Of a stretch of DNA of 37,256 nucleotides, positions 25,610 through 32,450 are shown in pieces. A program made the position numbers and the translations under genes. Where the stretch lies: positions 1-37,256 of the forward strand of contig SEAY01000022.1 in assembly GCA_004144865.1 (NCBI GenBank), given 5' to 3'. The notes below the pieces were generated by a model. That model searched no databases. It was given only the letters and a program-made list of their open reading frames with translations, and was not told where the DNA came from. This stretch comes from Comamonadaceae bacterium. Its GTDB lineage: Bacteria > Pseudomonadota > Gammaproteobacteria > Burkholderiales > Burkholderiaceae_C. The number at the start of each line of letters is the position of its first letter. Positions within the stretch are counted from its first letter, which is position 1.

Positions 25610-28306
25610 CTAGATGGCGACCACGCGCAGCCCGAGGTTGTTGTCGTTGGCGACGAGGTCCACCAGAGGCGTGTCCACGTACGAGCAGGCGAGGGACAAG
25701 GCCGGATCCGTGTTCGCGCGGTCGTCGGCGCACGTGGCTTGCGCGAAGAGGAGGTAGACGCCGGGGCCCGGGGCAAAGTCGAAGGTGAACGATCCTGCGT
25801 CCGAAGGCGGGCCGGATGGGATGGCCTGCAGGGCGTCACCCGTGAGCTGGCATGGCGTCCATCCTGCGCCGCCCGGGCGCCAGGAGGGCGGAGGCGTGTT
25901 CGCGAGCCACTCCTGGTACCAGAGGCGCACGGCGACGTCGTTCGCCGTGGTGCTCCCGCGGTTGCCCACGCGCACCTCCACCTTCCCATCGCCATCCCGC
26001 CAGATGATGCCGGTGGCCGGGTCGGCTTGCCAGCGCGGTGCGTCGCCGGCAGCGGCGTCGTCACGAGCTTGCCAGTGCAGCGAGACGGGAACGTAGCTCC
26101 CGGGCCCGTAGTCGGTCCGGTCGTCCATGGCGTCGTCTTTCGTCGCGCGTCCATCTTCGATGTAGATGTCGACGGGCTCGGGCGAGCCGGGACCATCGCC
26201 GCTCCCATAGAGTCCCTGCGCCTCGAAGGCCCAGCGGATCACCTTGGATAGCGTTCCGCCGACACGCCGGAACACCAGCGGCGGAAACGCCGCCGTCCAC
26301 GCTCCGGGCTGCAGGTCGGCCTGCCGGAGCCAATGCACGAACATCGCCGGCGTGGAGGTGGCCTGGATGCGCGCGTCGCCCATCAGTTGCATCGCCTGCA
26401 TGATCAGGTAGAGGACGTAGTGCGACGCGCGGCGGCGCTCGTCGGCATCCGGCGTGGCCGGCGCATCGCGCTGGTGGGTATCGCCCCCGATGCAGCGGTA
26501 GAGCCGGAACAGCGAGGACGACAGGATCTGCTCGCTCGCGTAGCCCTTGCGCCGCGGATGAAGGGCCTCGGGCACCTGGGCCAGGGCCGCGTGCAGGGTG
26601 CCCGACCAGCTCCAGCCATGGTGCGCGCACCGGTCGTGCCGCCGCGGCAGGAACACGAAGGGGAACGTGGCGCCGCGCAGTTTCGCGGGCAGCTTCGAGT
26701 CCGGATCCGCAACGATGGCGGCCATCGCGTCGCCCGGACTGTGGGCGAAGCGGAACTCGAGCTCGCCGGTGCTCGCCACCAGCAGCACGTGGCCGAACTC
26801 GTGCCACATCCAGCGTCGGTCCGCGGCCAGGCCGAAAGGAATCGCCGGCGCGGGCGGTCCGCCGTGCGTCCACACCTTCCGCTCGCGCCGCCGCAGGTCG
26901 GCCGCCGCCAGGTGGATTTGGAGGGCTGGGCGCTGTGCGTTGGGCGGCATGCCCATCTCCTCGCGACGCCAACCTTCCGGGATCACGCGCGCATTCACGG
27001 TGCGCCCGTCCCCTCCGGGCCCGGGGGACACGCCGGACCGGTAGAAGATCTTGATCTCGGGGGCGGTGAGGCGGAAGTACGCCGCCGGATTCGTCCAGCC
27101 GTAGGCCTCGATGCGCTGCACCAGGTCGCGCCCGTGGAAGAACGCCTGGATGGCCGATGCATCGTCGTTGCGGATCGGCGGACCGTTCAACCCGGCGAGG
27201 TCCACCGGGCGCGGCCGCTTCGCGTCCAGCCCGTCATCGGACTGCACGAAGCGGGGGCAGGGCATCACCTTGACGATGGGCGCATCGGCCGGGTACTGCA
27301 AGGGCCCTTGTTCCTTGCCCACCGCGAAGATGCTTGCCGGGCGCCGGGACTCGTCCAGGCCTACCGGGCGGCGCGGCGGGCGGGCCTGCTCGTCGCGCGT
27401 GGGCCGCACCGGGCGCCCGCCGTGCGAACTCGGATCGGCGTCGAACACCCGCGGGTCCGCCGCGTGCGTGACGAGGGGAGAGACATGGGTGATCGTGTGG
27501 GTCGCCTCCGGCGCCGCCTTTCCACCCACGCTGAGCATGGTGACGGCATAGGGGACATCGACGCCGCCTCCACCCTCCGCTCCCACGGCAACGGTGCGGA
27601 CGCCGACACCGCGCCGTTCGATCCACCATTCCTGCTCGGAAGCCGCGATGCGGATGCTGCGCACGACGACGCGCGCCATGTTGGCTGCCCGCGCCATGGC
27701 CTCGACGGCCTCGTCGCGGTAGAGGCTGCGTTTCCTGAACACGTTCTCGAAGGTCGACAGGGCGGCGGCCGAGATCGGATGCTCGCGAAAGTGGGCGTAG
27801 GGCAGCCCCGCGGCCAAGCCCGTGAAACTCGCCTTGAGCGAGCCGGCGTCCTTGCGAATGTGCATGGCCAGCGCGAGCGCGAAGCCGGAGCCGGTGTAGT
27901 GGCGAGGCGAGATCCGGTCCGACGCGAACAGGACGGCCATGTGGTCGGACGCGGAGCGGAAGCGGAAGGATCCGCGCGGGCCGGCGAAGGTGTGCCCGCC
28001 CTCGTGATCCTCGAACGGGAGCCATCCGAAGTACGGCGTGACCGTTCCGGCAGCGGCCGCGGGGTCCAATGCGGGGATCCATTGGTCCTTGACCAGGCGC
28101 GGGAGCTGGCTGCCCAGGTGCGCATCGGCGGACAGGTTCCGCAGGTAGCCATGGGCCGCAGCGTACAACGCGAGATCGCCGTCGTCGTCCAGCACCGCCT
28201 CGTAGGGGTCGTTGAAGTGCTCGATCAGCAGGGAGCCCGGCCCCGCGTCCTGCGGGTCGAAGACCGTCTCGACGTGCGTGGCCAGTGGCGACGGCTTCCA
28301 GTCCAT
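25610..28306 (-). CDS. Large protein with zincin-like HEFGH motif
   Basis: This 898-residue protein carries HEFGH at residues 502-506 (RRWMWHEFGHVLLVASTGE), followed 15 residues later by FAHSPGDAMAAIV. HExxH with a downstream H-S-x-G-D is the pattern of zinc metalloproteases and related hypothetical proteins, so a zinc site formed by His502, His506 and possibly His522 is likely; peptidase activity is inferred. A second HEGGH occurs at residues 101-105. The last 160 residues read as a beta-sandwich of CARDB type (KVEVRVGNRGSTTANDVAVR, VDLVANDNNLGLRV). There is no signal peptide. The gene starts 19 bp after the haloperoxidase-like gene and is third in a minus-strand operon with the cyclase. It may process or bind the silk-like partner; that is a guess. 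Confidence 0.75.
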   Translation of the reverse strand: MDWKPSPLATHVETVFDPQDAGPGSLLIEHFNDPYEAVLDDDGDLALYAAAHGYLRNLSADAHLGSQLPRLVKDQWIPALDPAAAAGTVTPYFGWLPFEDHEGGHTFAGPRGSFRFRSASDHMAVLFASDRISPRHYTGSGFALALAMHIRKDAGSLKASFTGLAAGLPYAHFREHPISAAALSTFENVFRKRSLYRDEAVEAMARAANMARVVVRSIRIAASEQEWWIERRGVGVRTVAVGAEGGGGVDVPYAVTMLSVGGKAAPEATHTITHVSPLVTHAADPRVFDADPSSHGGRPVRPTRDEQARPPRRPVGLDESRRPASIFAVGKEQGPLQYPADAPIVKVMPCPRFVQSDDGLDAKRPRPVDLAGLNGPPIRNDDASAIQAFFHGRDLVQRIEAYGWTNPAAYFRLTAPEIKIFYRSGVSPGPGGDGRTVNARVIPEGWRREEMGMPPNAQRPALQIHLAAADLRRRERKVWTHGGPPAPAIPFGLAADRRWMWHEFGHVLLVASTGELEFRFAHSPGDAMAAIVADPDSKLPAKLRGATFPFVFLPRRHDRCAHHGWSWSGTLHAALAQVPEALHPRRKGYASEQILSSSLFRLYRCIGGDTHQRDAPATPDADERRRASHYVLYLIMQAMQLMGDARIQATSTPAMFVHWLRQADLQPGAWTAAFPPLVFRRVGGTLSKVIRWAFEAQGLYGSGDGPGSPEPVDIYIEDGRATKDDAMDDRTDYGPGSYVPVSLHWQARDDAAAGDAPRWQADPATGIIWRDGDGKVEVRVGNRGSTTANDVAVRLWYQEWLANTPPPSWRPGGAGWTPCQLTGDALQAIPSGPPSDAGSFTFDFAPGPGVYLLFAQATCADDRANTDPALSLACSYVDTPLVDLVANDNNLGLRVVAI

Positions 28307-28325: not shown

Positions 28326-29582
28326 TCACTGGGGCCACTCGGCCTTCGCGCGCGCGAGGACGCTCAGCAGCGTCGGACAGGTGATCTTCTTGTTCACGTC
28401 CTTTTCGTGCAGCAGGGCGTGCCACATGTTCGCCGCGAGATGCCGGCCGGCGGCGGAGTCGGACGGGTAGTGCACGCCCAGGCGTTCGCGGTTCTTGGCC
28501 AGGCGCGCGGCGAGCCAGAGCAGCGGCGAGTTGATGGGTTGCGTCTTCTGGAGATCCGTCCGGGAGACGGGCCCGCCGCGGACGGCGGGGGCGCCTTGGG
28601 CATTCGCCTTGAAGAGCCCATAGCGCGCGCACAAGGCGGGGATCTCGAGCAGCAGCAAGGCGATCAGGTGGCCCAGCGTCGCATGGCCGCTGGGAAACGC
28701 CGGATGGCCCGGGGGGCCAAAGGGCGGCGCGAGCGCCGGACAGAGGAACGAGGGACGCACGCGGCGATACAGGCTCTTCCAGCGCATGTACGCGACGTTG
28801 CCCATGGCCAGGCCGCACTGGATGAGTTCTATGGTCCAGGGATGCCGCTCCTGGCTGGCGCCGATGAAGGCGATCACATAGCCGGGCAGTCCGTCCGCCT
28901 GCGCTTCGATCTCCGCCATGTAGCGGTCGCGGTCGTCCTGCATCAGTTGCTGCAGCTGCGCGATCTCCGATTCGATGTGGGCGAATCCTTTCGCGCCGAA
29001 CCGCCAGTCCAGGTCCTCGGTCTCGATCCAGTTGCCGTCGAGGAAAGCCGTGTCCTTGCCCCACCGCTCGTACTGGGCCGCGAATTCCCGCGCGGCCAGG
29101 ATGGAGGGTGAGGATGGATCCACGGACTTGAGCCACTCGGTCAGCTGCGAATCGAAGACCGGCAGGTCCCAGAAGCGCAGTGCCGGATCCCAATCCTCGG
29201 TGGTCCACTCCAGATGGGGATTGACTGCGTAGGGATCGACGATGACGTCGAACAGGAATGGAGGATTGCCCGCGTCGTCGGGCGTGACGTCCAGCGACCA
29301 CGGCTTGTAGCCCAGGTCCCAGGGGGTGGCGTAGTAGCTGCGCCGATAGCCGATGGAGGCCCCTGCGCCAGCTCCTGCACCAGCACCAGCGCCCGCACCA
29401 GCGCCCGCGCCGGCTCCTGCGCCTGCGCCAGCTCCTGCACCCGCACCAACTCCTGCGCCTGCGCCTGCGCCTGCGCCAGCGCCAGCGCCCGCACCAGCGC
29501 CGGCTCCTGCACCCGCACCCGCACCAGCTCCTGCGCCAGCACCCGCTCCTGCACCCGCACCTGCACCTGCACCGTAAGCCAT
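28326..29582 (-). CDS. Vanadium-haloperoxidase/PAP2-type protein with silk-like Gly-Ala N-terminus
   Basis: A 418-residue protein. Residues 4-75 are about 36 Gly-Ala dipeptides, broken by one Val, directly after MAY; residues 76 on form a conventional domain. The C-terminal half shows the three motifs of the PAP2/vanadium chloroperoxidase superfamily: K269-x6-R276-P, P297-S-G-H300 and R365-x5-H371-x3-D375 (RERLGVHYPSD). These coordinate phosphate or vanadate; His371 would be the vanadate ligand and His300 the acid-base residue. Proteins of this size with a helical N-terminal half are more like haloperoxidases than membrane lipid phosphatases, and no membrane helices are seen. ATG 29582 has AAGGAGAAT upstream. 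It lies 47 bp after the cyclase gene. No signal peptide is visible, so export, if any, is not Sec-dependent. Confidence 0.85.
   Translation of the reverse strand: MAYGAGAGAGAGAGAGAGAGAGAGAGAGAGAGAGAGAGAGAGAGVGAGAGAGAGAGAGAGAGAGAGAGAGAGAGASIGYRRSYYATPWDLGYKPWSLDVTPDDAGNPPFLFDVIVDPYAVNPHLEWTTEDWDPALRFWDLPVFDSQLTEWLKSVDPSSPSILAAREFAAQYERWGKDTAFLDGNWIETEDLDWRFGAKGFAHIESEIAQLQQLMQDDRDRYMAEIEAQADGLPGYVIAFIGASQERHPWTIELIQCGLAMGNVAYMRWKSLYRRVRPSFLCPALAPPFGPPGHPAFPSGHATLGHLIALLLLEIPALCARYGLFKANAQGAPAVRGGPVSRTDLQKTQPINSPLLWLAARLAKNRERLGVHYPSDSAAGRHLAANMWHALLHEKDVNKKITCPTLLSVLARAKAEWPQ
29358..29573 (-). repeat. Tandem hexanucleotide repeat encoding poly(Gly-Ala)
   Basis: Thirty-six units of the form GGNGCN on the minus strand (GCNCCN on the plus strand) run without length change. 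The wobble bases vary freely among all four bases, while the first two bases of each codon are kept, with one exception (AAC at 29448-29450, giving Val). This is the pattern of an old repeat held at protein level rather than a fresh microsatellite. The same bases read Ala-Pro repeats on the plus strand. Confidence 0.9.
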
Positions 29583-29629
29583 TGCGATTCTCCTTTTCTT
29601 CTTGGGAATGGCGTTGACCGACCTTGCAA

Positions 29630-31438
29630 TCAGTCCGGCAACCCGGCTGCGCGCAATCCCTTTTCCAGGCGCGCGAGATCCTCGGCGCGGCGCAGGGGGT
29701 ACCACTCGATGAACTTGCCGACGCGGAAGTTCGGCTCGACGGCGAGCAGTTGCTGGCCGACGGCGCGGGCGCCTTCCTCGTCCCCGGAGAGGGCCAGCGC
29801 GGCGGCCAGGGTCCGCATGGCGGCGATGAAGCGCGGATTGGCGCGGCTCGACTTGCGCGCCCACGCGATGCATTCCTCGTAGCGCTGCGCGACGAAAGCG
29901 GCGATGCCGGCGACGATCCAGAAGTAGAAGTTCATCGGGTCGTAGGGATTGAGGCGCCAGACGTTGCGCAGGCGCTCCGCGGCGTCGTCCGCCTCGCCCT
30001 GGTACGCACGGTTCAGCGCGCTCAGGCCCCAGGCGAACGCGGAGTTCTCGTTCAGCGCCAGGGCGCGGTCGTACAGGTCGCTGGCCAGGTCGAGGTCCTT
30101 GGCGGTGAAGCCATGGATGTGGGCCGCCACGCAGAGCACGAACGGGTCTTCCGGATCGAGTTCGAGCGCGCGCTGGGCAGCGGCGAGCGCACGCGCCCGG
30201 TCGCTGGCCGGATCCGGGGAGCGGTTCTCGCCCAGCACGAAGTTCAGGCGCCACGCGGTATACGCGTGCGCCTGGGCATAGCCCCGGTCGAGCGAGGTCG
30301 CGCGATCCAGCAGTTCCCCGCTCTCCCGGAAGCTCTCGTCGGTGAACCGGTACAACCGCGACATGGCCTTGAGGACGGAGTCGAAGGCGTCCAGGCTCTC
30401 GGTGGGCCGCTCCGCCGCGCGCGCCGCTTCCACGGCGCGCAGCCGCGGCTCCAGGGAGCCGATGATGCTGGCGGCGATCCGGTCCTGGAACTCGAACACG
30501 TCGGCGCCGCCGCCATCGAAGCGCTGCGACCAGAGCGACAGGTTCTCGTTGACGTCGAGGAGCTCCACCTTGATGCGCAGGCGGTCCTGCTGGCGCCAGA
30601 CGCTGCCGTCGAGAAGGAAGCGCACGTCGAGCTCCGCCGCGATCTGGCGCAGGTCGCTCTCGCCGGTGCGCTTGCTGTAGCGCAGTGTCGAATTGCGGGC
30701 GATGACGTACATCGAGCGGCTGCAGGACAGCCCCGTGATGATCGCGTCGGTGATGCCCTCGCCGAAGTAGCTGTCGCTGTCCTCGCCCGTTCCGCTGCGG
30801 AACGGGAGGACGGCCAGGGTGGGCCGCGACGTCCAGTGCAGGTGAGGCTGCGGCATCAGCCGCGCGCGTCCACTGTCATGCCACTCGATCTCGAAGACGC
30901 GCACGGGCTGCACGATGTTCTTCATCGCCGGCGTGCCGAGGTCGCGAAAGTTCAGGGGAAGGCGGTTGGTGACGAATTCGCGCACCCTCTGCGTGATGAC
31001 GATCTGCCCCGGCGCTCCCGCCTGGTGGATCCTGGCCGCGATGTTCACGCCGTCGCCCTGCAGGATGCCGTCGTCGTCGATCAGGTCGTCGACGTTGATG
31101 CCGACGCGAAGGTGCAGCGCGAACGGATCGGCCTTGTCCTGCAGCGCGTGCTGCACGCGCTGCACCTGCGTGGCCCATTGGACGGCATTGACGGCGCTGG
31201 CGAACTCGATGAGCACGGCGTCGCCGGCGATTTCGGCCACGCGTCCTCCGTGCTGCATCATGAGCGGCTCCATGACGTCGGTCCGCAGGGCCTTCCATCG
31301 ACGCACGGTCCCGGCGTCGTCGGCCGCCATGAGGCGCGAATAGCCGGCCACGTCCGCGAACGCCACCGCGGCAAGGCGCCTGCGGAGGGACGGAGCCCCC
31401 TCCAGCCTCTCGCCCGCTTCGGGTGTCGTGGTGCTCAT
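29630..31438 (-). CDS. Class III nucleotide cyclase with TolB-like and TPR regions
   Basis: This 602-residue protein has an N-terminal class III cyclase domain: Asp29 in FADVAGYSR and Asp73 in EIAGDAVLIEF (two metal ligands), and GDGVNIAARI with Asn132 and Arg136 (transition-state residues). The catalytic set is therefore intact. The substrate-selecting residues are unusual: Glu69 where adenylate cyclases have Lys, and Ile125 where they have Asp or Thr. A TolB-like beta-rich region follows (PTLAVLPFRSGTGEDSDSYF, FLLDGSVWRQQDRLRI), then TPR-like helices to the end. This layout is common in rhizobial and Burkholderiales cyclases. It is cytoplasmic; no membrane segment is seen. It is the first gene of a three-gene operon, and divergent from a Crp/Fnr-type regulator. 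Confidence 0.9.
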   Translation of the reverse strand: MSTTTPEAGERLEGAPSLRRRLAAVAFADVAGYSRLMAADDAGTVRRWKALRTDVMEPLMMQHGGRVAEIAGDAVLIEFASAVNAVQWATQVQRVQHALQDKADPFALHLRVGINVDDLIDDDGILQGDGVNIAARIHQAGAPGQIVITQRVREFVTNRLPLNFRDLGTPAMKNIVQPVRVFEIEWHDSGRARLMPQPHLHWTSRPTLAVLPFRSGTGEDSDSYFGEGITDAIITGLSCSRSMYVIARNSTLRYSKRTGESDLRQIAAELDVRFLLDGSVWRQQDRLRIKVELLDVNENLSLWSQRFDGGGADVFEFQDRIAASIIGSLEPRLRAVEAARAAERPTESLDAFDSVLKAMSRLYRFTDESFRESGELLDRATSLDRGYAQAHAYTAWRLNFVLGENRSPDPASDRARALAAAQRALELDPEDPFVLCVAAHIHGFTAKDLDLASDLYDRALALNENSAFAWGLSALNRAYQGEADDAAERLRNVWRLNPYDPMNFYFWIVAGIAAFVAQRYEECIAWARKSSRANPRFIAAMRTLAAALALSGDEEGARAVGQQLLAVEPNFRVGKFIEWYPLRRAEDLARLEKGLRAAGLPD

Positions 31439-31742
31439 CCCGTGACCCCGATCGGCTGCAGGCGAGCGGCCGGTGCGGCTGCCGCCGAGCGACTGGACGG
31501 TAGGCGGGGAGTGACCGGCATGTCCCCAGTATGTTCAAGCGCGAAGAGCCGTACAAGGGAGATTGCTGGGGGGTGTTCATGTTGCGCCGGCCCGCGCTTG
31601 CGAATCGTCGAGTTGCAGTTCGCGCAATGGCTGAGGCAGCCGGCGCCGCGCGCGGGGTGCAGACTTGACGCTGCGGCGGCCGGGAGTAGAACGGAGGCCT
31701 CGATCGGCGGGTGACCGCGCAAGGAATCCAGTGGAAATCCCC
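31439..31742. promoter_or_regulatory. Divergent intergenic region between cyclase and Crp/Fnr-type genes
   Basis: This 304-bp gap must hold the promoters of both the cyclase operon and the regulator gene. The best candidate for the regulator is TTGACG (31665-31670) and TAGAAC (31687-31692) with a 16-bp spacer. I found no clear CRP-type (TGTGA-N6-TCACA) or FNR-type (TTGAT-N4-ATCAA) box, so autoregulation cannot be claimed. No gene is seen inside the gap. Confidence 0.45.
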
Positions 31743-32450
31743 ATGCCCAAACCGGTGCAGCCATCCATCGTGGGCTTGCGAAGCGTGGAACTGCTTCACG
31801 GCCTGCCTTCCGAGCGCCTGCAGGAAATCAGCCACCAGTGCGTCTGGCGCCGCTTCGACGCGGGGCAGACGCTCATCGCGCGCGAGCAGGAAGACCGGGA
31901 CCTCCACCTGATCGTGGCGGGCGCGGTGCGCGTCACGAGCTATTCGCCGGGGGGACGCGAGACGAGTTTCCGCGAGCTGGCCGCCGGCGCTTCCTTCGGG
32001 GAGATCTCCGCGCTGGATGGCCGGCCGCGGTCCGCCGATGTCATCGCGCTGCGCCCGGGCTTGATCGCGTCCATGCCGCCGGCCGATTTCCGCGCACTGC
32101 TGCAGCGGGAATGGACCGTCAACGAACGGGTGCTGCTGCGGCTGGCCGACCTGGCCCGGGGCATGATCGACCGCGTGCTCGATCTCAGCACGCTGAGCGT
32201 GCAGCAGCGCGTGTGCATCGAGCTGCTGCGGCTTGCGCAATCCACCGGCGGCGCCGGCAACGAGGTGCGCATCGCGCCGGCACCGAAGCACGCCGACTTG
32301 GCGCACCTGGTGAGCAGCTACCGCGAGCAGGTCACGCGCGAGCTGTCGGCGCTGGCGCGGGCGGGCGTGCTCACCCGGGAGCACGGCGCGCTGGTGGTGC
32401 GCGACCTGGACCGGCTGAAGAAGATGGCCAGCCGGCAGGGCGCCCACTGA
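31743..32450 (+). CDS. Crp/Fnr-family transcriptional regulator
   Basis: A 235-residue protein with an N-terminal cyclic-nucleotide-binding beta-roll (residues about 15-130) and a C-terminal winged helix. The phosphate-binding cassette reads ASFGEISALDGRPRSADVIA, keeping the G-E and R-S residues that hold the cyclic phosphate in CRP, so nucleotide binding is plausible; there are no Fnr-type iron-sulfur cysteines. The helix-turn-helix is PKHADLAHLVSSYREQVTRE with LSALARAGVLTREHGALVV. ATG 31743 is used; GTG 31731, with AAGGA five bases upstream, is a good alternative adding four residues. Divergence from a nucleotide cyclase gene makes it a natural receptor for that enzyme's product. The targets are not known. 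Confidence 0.9.
   Translation: MPKPVQPSIVGLRSVELLHGLPSERLQEISHQCVWRRFDAGQTLIAREQEDRDLHLIVAGAVRVTSYSPGGRETSFRELAAGASFGEISALDGRPRSADVIALRPGLIASMPPADFRALLQREWTVNERVLLRLADLARGMIDRVLDLSTLSVQQRVCIELLRLAQSTGGAGNEVRIAPAPKHADLAHLVSSYREQVTRELSALARAGVLTREHGALVVRDLDRLKKMASRQGAH

Follow-up and report, generated by a model that had tools for sequence, protein, structure and literature searches.

Genes and features of the locus

The window, a stretch of 37,256 nucleotides from a Comamonadaceae bacterium, carries on its minus strand a coding sequence for a 418-residue protein (28326..29582), defined by the sequence and by its homologues and preceded by an AAGGAG ribosome-binding site (29590..29595, minus strand) 7 nt 5' of the ATG. 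The protein opens with MAY, continues with 36 Gly-X units (residues 4-75; 29358..29573) and ends in a PAP2-type catalytic part of 343 residues (28326..29357, stop codon included). About 36 Gly-Ala dipeptides had been reported here in an earlier note; the count and the position stand, and one unit, the twenty-first, is Gly-Val (GGAGTT, residue 45). Glycine is encoded in the tract by GGT (14), GGC (14), GGA (7) and GGG (1), and alanine by GCA (14), GCT (10), GCG (8) and GCC (3). In lag comparisons between units the third codon position differs in 48 of 70 cases, the second in 2 of 70 and the first in 0 of 70, and because third positions vary, Tandem Repeats Finder, which places the tract at 29362-29573, gives unit-to-unit matches of only 76-78%.

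An antisense ORF on the plus strand (29353-29577; MEAPAPAP...) mirrors the Gly-Ala tract as poly(Ala-Pro), and nothing marks it as a gene. Since this ORF shares the same wobble positions, the wobble of the window alone leaves the frame unfixed; it is the sequences of the relatives that decide, and they assign the reading frame of the tract to the minus strand. An antisense (Ala-Pro)n gene is ruled out by the codon positions over 73 tracts, described below, together with the conserved start, ribosome site and domain. The Gly-X tract is very likely translated, and it is under protein-level selection.

Behind the tract, as had been noted before, lie three PAP2-type motifs on the minus strand, KX6RP (28752..28778), PSGH (28683..28694) and RX5HX3D (28458..28490). 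The K, R and P of the first motif and the R, H and D of the third are invariant in 99 of 99 homologues, and in the second H is found in 99, P in 96, S in 91 and G in 90 of 99. The third PAP2 motif usually takes the form SRX5HX3D; in the window protein its first Ser is replaced by Asn. Over the PAP2 motifs as a whole, the residues K, R, P, H, R, G, H and D are kept in all 99 homologues, and the invariance of the catalytic K, R, H, R, H and D indicates that the enzyme has been kept. The window protein scores 26.8 bits against the Pfam PAP2 family (PF01569), just below the cut-off of 27.2, and 29.0 bits in the genome search. An AlphaFold2 model of the PAP2-type part (pLDDT 70.5, pTM 0.77) shows the PAP2 fold. 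From its motif residues and its fold, the window domain belongs to the PAP2 superfamily. Three homologues from the Bradyrhizobium genus (L055, L056, L057) carry an extra ~100-200 residues between motifs 2 and 3, with repeat-like pieces within the extra segment of L056.

The domain had been called haloperoxidase-type in the earlier note, and of this label the PAP2 part holds. The first 22 fold matches in the PDB are acid phosphatases (E 4e-4 to 4e-2, TM by target <=0.71), with class A enzymes nearest, whereas haloperoxidases match weakly, with E values of 0.17 or worse and a TM by query of <=0.41. A sequence profile search likewise gives E 4e-7 for acid phosphatases against E 0.003 for bromoperoxidases. 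Because predicted fold and sequence profile both favour acid phosphatases, the haloperoxidase label stays unproven, and the window enzyme is better described, provisionally, as a soluble phosphatase.

Upstream and co-directional lies a gene for a 602-residue protein with a class III nucleotide cyclase domain and TPRs (29630..31438, minus strand; PF00211 and TPR matches), which is a conserved neighbour. At the presumed catalytic positions of 65 aligned sequences, the two Asp are found in 58 and 54, the Asn in 42 and the Arg in 46. A divergent Crp/Fnr-type regulator with a cyclic-nucleotide-binding domain (31710..32450, plus strand; PF00027, PF13545) lies beyond. Crp/Fnr-like ORFs also occur in 4 of 24 other loci compared (L113, L219, L221, L224), and the PAP2 module may therefore signal through cAMP. 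Downstream, an 898-residue protein (25610..28306, minus strand) bears a HEFGH motif (26789..26803, minus strand) whose H, E and H are invariant in 8 aligned members; on its motif only, it is a candidate zincin-like metalloprotease. This protein matches no Pfam or NCBIfam family, its structure model is unusable (pLDDT 38.8) and its profile finds no PDB match up to E 1.

A PAP2 family with regular N-terminal repeats

Relatives were collected by several searches. The family search of 200 genomes gave 35 matches at E <= 1e-3, the window's own genome counted, and only one other of these is nearly full length (47% identity, residues 6-342). A scan of 84,980 species genomes with two short patterns yielded 7 loci, among them relatives in Bradyrhizobium valentinum (58% identity), Phaeobacter italicus (47%) and Aquabacterium humicola (43%), the last being the genome of the nearly full-length match. 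An N-terminal repeat is present in 7 of these 7 loci and its peptide varies: (GA)30 in Bradyrhizobium, (GLGLGN..) in Phaeobacter, and elsewhere (GQ)15, SPNFSGHA, PNYAAYSA (twice) and NVGAH/NVGAY. Thus orthologues at 43-58% identity keep the repeat, often with another peptide (GQ, GLGN, PNYAAYSA, NVGAH). In a phylum sample of 398 genomes, 41 match a GM-type query at E <= 1e-8, and the 30 loci read from it comprise 19 family members with a repeat and 11 other PAP2 proteins without. A plasmid search with the same type of protein gave 66 records, 62 of them from Rhizobium, and 12 were examined; one with the PAP2-type catalytic part of the window gave no match. Window-type queries found no relative in viral contigs and phages, and a mobile or phage origin was among the readings set aside.

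A domain profile was built from 74 enzyme domains with the repeats removed. Run over the collected loci, it finds 112 PAP2-like ORFs above 60 bits once duplicates are removed, and the family set used here consists of the 99 non-identical homologues above 100 bits from the sampled Pseudomonadota, L134 having been dropped as a duplicate of L006. A short-period tandem repeat stands at the N-terminus of 95 of the 99, compared with 0 of the 12 ORFs scoring 60-100 bits. The exceptions are L014, which has none, L021 and L119, which are degenerate by eye, and L128 (104 bits), which has neither repeat nor sensor gene. The earlier note had looked to relatives that lack the tract or bear it at out-of-frame lengths as evidence against its reading; these are largely absent, in that the in-frame repeat is kept in 95 of 99 and missing or degenerate in four. 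The same note had known of no comparable fusion, and the window protein is not unique, as its homologues carry repeats of many kinds. One of the 99 also has a repeat of score 14 inside its enzyme domain. Outside the set, the PAP2 gene on a plasmid of Bosea sp. NBC_00550 (L246) is split in the annotation into two overlapping hypothetical ORFs, lacks a repeat and looks like a decaying copy.

A script distinguishes 49 units in the 95 repeat proteins, or about 46 once near-variants such as PNYAAYSA/PNYAAYGA are merged; examples are GA, GM, GQ, GGY, GGW, TGT, DAR, NK, SLWPRA and PNYAAYSA. The period is 3 residues in 24 units, 4 in 7, 2 in 6, 8 in 5 and another length in 7. Over all tracts the composition is 45.7% Gly and 15.7% Ala, and D, E, K and R are absent from 41 of the 49 units. 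Counted from the chosen start, a median of 4 residues stands ahead of the repeat, and a ribosome-site-like motif precedes that start in 92 of 95, a figure that carries the preference for such a motif in choosing starts. Members of the NK clade have a long head of ~65 to 110 residues ahead of the repeat. The GA tail itself occurs in 7 of the 99, all in one clade that includes the window, with ~30-37 units; to the Bradyrhizobium valentinum copy, genus and family searches had added five genomes of that genus with ~29-37 units. A sister clade bears (GM)4-17, and the family of Phaeobacter uses GMGMGMGN, GQ and GLGN. Most homologues at ~25-38% identity are also repeat-bearing, with GGY, GGW, GGA, GGV, SGGY, SGGA, TGT, TSA, IQG, SSG, ANT, DAR, DF, GGGD, polyG, SLWPRA, GIGRTA and others. 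The sample is uneven, as most GGY and GM members come from Bradyrhizobium.

The neighbours recur as well. In 95 of the 99 homologues a TPR sensor gene (cyclase or SARP type) is found upstream in the same orientation, and repeat and sensor gene occur together in 92; for the AEN and QQT members no same-strand upstream sensor gene was found within the stretch read. In the NK-clade Rhizobium records the upstream TPR gene is annotated as a SARP family regulator. All 29 long loci from the clade that includes the window have a homologue of the HExxH-motif gene, by that motif a putative protease; this gene is co-directional with the PAP2 gene in the window and convergent with it in L035-L041 and L067-L081. 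A second clade, which includes Terrarubrum, has a subtilisin-type gene at 12 loci (PF00082 in five members scanned, one below the cut-off), and the NK clade has another S8 gene at 12 loci. In all, a homologue of the HExxH-motif gene (29) or an S8 subtilase (24) is found in 53 of 66 long loci, a total that includes 10 near-identical Rhizobium records. No homologue of either was found at the other 13, which comprise two GGY, two GGGD, one each of DF, DAR, TGN, AGN, ANT, polyG and GGNWF, the repeat-less L224 and the broken Bosea copy. A simple pattern search of 11 second-clade S8 loci gave both the His and the Ser motif in 5, one in 3 and neither in 3; as the two occur together in only 5 of 11, some of these subtilases may be inactive. 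At L219, a pattern-negative locus, all three subtilase motifs are visible by eye.

Taken together, these observations show that the window gene is a member of a PAP2-phosphatase-like family that almost always bears a regular N-terminal repeat, and they point to a module of three genes, for a TPR sensor, a repeat-tailed phosphatase and a protease-like protein, in the sampled Pseudomonadota, rhizobial megaplasmids included. Whether the repeat is instead a general trait of cyclase neighbourhoods was checked at the cyclase-TPR loci of Bradyrhizobium valentinum, where 20 of 21 matches were read, some at loci that are cut or masked. This idea was rejected, as only the PAP2-linked locus among the 20 has a peptide-repeat protein, and the other flagged runs are masked letters.

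Selection and turnover of the repeat units

The regularity of the repeats goes beyond chance: with the N-termini of the family shuffled, a repeat score of 9 is reached in 2 of 1980 trials, against 93 of the 99 real sequences. Between neighbouring copies in 73 tracts the mismatch is 2.4% at codon position 1, 2.3% at position 2 and 61.8% at position 3 (2296 comparisons per position). The tracts were picked by amino-acid regularity, which lowers the mismatch at positions 1 and 2 somewhat, but such a choice cannot yield 62% against 2%. It is therefore the peptide that is kept; the DNA of the arrays is old, and the protein copies that it encodes have been held identical. The earlier note had proposed, from wobble bases that vary while the dipeptide stays, that selection acts on the protein, and these comparisons bear it out over the family. 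A DNA-level slippage artefact without protein function, which might be suggested by the tandem arrays and by copy numbers that vary among close strains (NK 7 or 8; GM 4.5-17), is contradicted by this divergence of the wobble positions while the amino acids stay fixed, as well as by the lack of a repeat in the other PAP2 loci of the same genomes; we regard it as scarcely credible. Those loci come from seven genomes, in which the examination covered 30 PAP2 loci from a list of 35 places: the repeat is present in 10 of 10 family members and in 0 of 20 others.

A tree of the 99 domains, made without the repeats, shows the units to be clade-specific and calls for at least 49 changes for 49 units, and thus hardly any unit is reused; it is a quick tree, with 26 of 96 inner branches open and some long branches. 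The GA unit is kept along a long path, the window and Bradyrhizobium valentinum being separated by 0.78 changes per site. Copy number drifts (GGY 7.7-11.7, GM 4.5-17, GA 29.5-37), and among ten Rhizobium plasmid records seven have an NK tract of 7 copies and three have one of 8. Two repeat-bearing members were read in each of five genomes, and in all five their units differ (PNYAAYGA/GSQ, TSA/SHS, polyG/GGY, GM/GGY, GQ/HSGS); since paralogues of one genome belong to different subfamilies, different units are expected anyway. At the second paralogue locus of Aquabacterium humicola (L137), the GSQ repeat is accompanied, ~1.3 kb downstream of the sensor gene, by a further DNA repeat that reads (Gln-Val)n or (Leu-His)n in other frames. 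Repetitiveness is thus conserved in the family and the repeated letters are not; the unit is shown to be constant inside a clade, different between clades and kept at the amino-acid level. We tentatively suggest, at somewhat less than even odds, that selection acts on regularity itself while units are swapped wholesale, whether as an orthogonal self-assembly code or in unrecognised PAP2-fused peptide precursors with a dedicated protease.

Possible roles of the repeat

The reading that we prefer, at a rough probability of 0.38, is that the repeat is a homotypic assembly or latency tail, which the co-encoded protease would clip under the control of the sensor to free the enzyme. Through its many identical short units the tail would self-associate multivalently, as a beta ladder, a polyglycine helix or a condensate, gathering the cytoplasmic phosphatase into clusters and keeping it latent. 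A repeat of any kind would suffice if it is regular enough, and different units would keep paralogues apart. The cyclase- or SARP-TPR sensor would control the protease, of HExxH or subtilisin type, and clipping of the tail would release the enzyme. An assembly tail is favoured because strict regularity combined with a free choice of unit fits multivalent self-association, and copies that stay identical despite old DNA fit a function that needs regularity; clipping is favoured because protease-like genes of two kinds recur beside the PAP2 gene. Against assembly, the units are chemically very diverse (GA, DAR, NK, QQT), and self-association is not known for all of them. The whole reading is also weakened by the 13 long loci at which no homologue of the protease-like genes was found, by the two members for which no upstream sensor gene was found in the stretch read, and by the NK tracts, which stand behind a long head instead of at the very end.

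The strongest rival to such a tail is a fused multi-copy peptide substrate, in which the repeat would be a core peptide modified by co-encoded enzymes and excised by the co-encoded protease, as in RiPP biosynthesis. It is the main rival because the Rhizobium operon, in the order SARP regulator, PAP2 protein with (NK)7-8, S8 peptidase, aKG-HExxH hydroxylase, ThiF (PF00899) and small protein, includes a peptide beta-hydroxylase (TIGR04267, 73.5 bits against a cut-off of 40) beside the ThiF. Identical copies with lineage-specific units are also the pattern expected of a multi-core precursor, and hydroxylation of consecutive glutamines in RiPP precursors by related HEXXH enzymes is described in one report (PMC12636437). 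We nevertheless consider this reading less likely than the assembly tail: homologues of the hydroxylase and of ThiF are confined to 11 and 10 of 66 long loci, all in the NK clade, and the two genes flanking the window gene match no known modification family. The units GA, GGV, GGA, GGGA, polyG, AGV and GL consist of Gly, Ala, Val or Leu only, none of which has, to our knowledge, a side chain modified by RiPP-type enzymes. A multi-copy substrate may be true of the NK clade alone. The small protein at the end of that operon in a Rhizobium ruizarguesonis plasmid (L243, 9908-10105; 65 residues, a CC motif near its N-terminus) is a possible separate RiPP precursor.

An entropic or solubility tail, for which any low-complexity disordered stretch would serve, for instance by easing folding or translation start, accords with the Gly/Ala-rich tracts, with the 41 units free of charged D, E, K and R, and with the position of most tracts directly after the start codon; as disorder needs no regularity, the mismatch of ~2% at the first two codon positions against 62% at the third makes it less probable still. 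Two more specific roles are improbable, and about equally so. One, the silk-like anchor or fibre special to Gly-Ala that the earlier note had proposed, draws on the ~30-37 GA units of seven members of one clade, the window included, and is weakened by the finding that sister clades whose gene neighbourhood is the same carry GQ, GLGN, GMGN or octapeptides containing Asn: GA is the unit of 7 of 99 homologues beside 48 other units (GQ, GM, GGY, DAR, NK and more), so that Gly-Ala silk chemistry is not supported as the point of the tract, and no signal peptide was seen by eye ahead of it. The other, a decoy or recognition tag in an arms race, as part of a defence or effector module that drives unit turnover, would explain lineage-specific units, the cyclase and protease neighbours recall components of defence systems that work by signalling, and the cyclase has weak matches to PycC (6.7e-5, 4.9e-4). 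These are, however, the only matches to known cyclase and effector models of Pycsar/CBASS type, PADLOC has no match for two PAP2 proteins or the downstream protein, the phage and viral searches described above stayed empty, and units are constant over deep branches such as that from the window to Bradyrhizobium valentinum.

Relation to known systems

A literature search, in which subscription journals were mostly outside coverage, found no description of a repeat-tailed PAP2 family or of the module, and passages of a census of protein tandem repeats (PMC7230257) do not mention the trait. With about fifty natural repeat tails, which may be interchangeable, on a single enzyme scaffold, the family would allow a direct test of which repeats can stand in for one another, and for what reason.

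The nearest predicted fold is that of the class A non-specific acid phosphatases (PhoN/PhoC; PDB 7f17, 7f18, 1d2t), which share the PAP2 motifs at ~20% identity to the window enzyme. Those enzymes are secreted and are not known to have a repeat tail, whereas the window family carries an N-terminal tract and is accompanied by a sensor gene. Vanadium-dependent haloperoxidases have the same vanadate/phosphate-binding residues; compared with them the window enzyme is smaller, has a single PAP2 domain and gives the weaker fold match. With silk fibroin, known for its Gly-Ala crystalline repeats, the window protein shares a poly(GA) stretch, but its tract is 72 residues only, lacks the GAGAGS pattern and belongs to a family in which relatives swap the unit. 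Precursor-enzyme fusions are also known among RiPPs, as in the borosins and burpitides, which like the window family join a repeated peptide to an enzyme; they differ from it in that 55 of 66 long loci of the family have no homologue of the Rhizobium modification genes.
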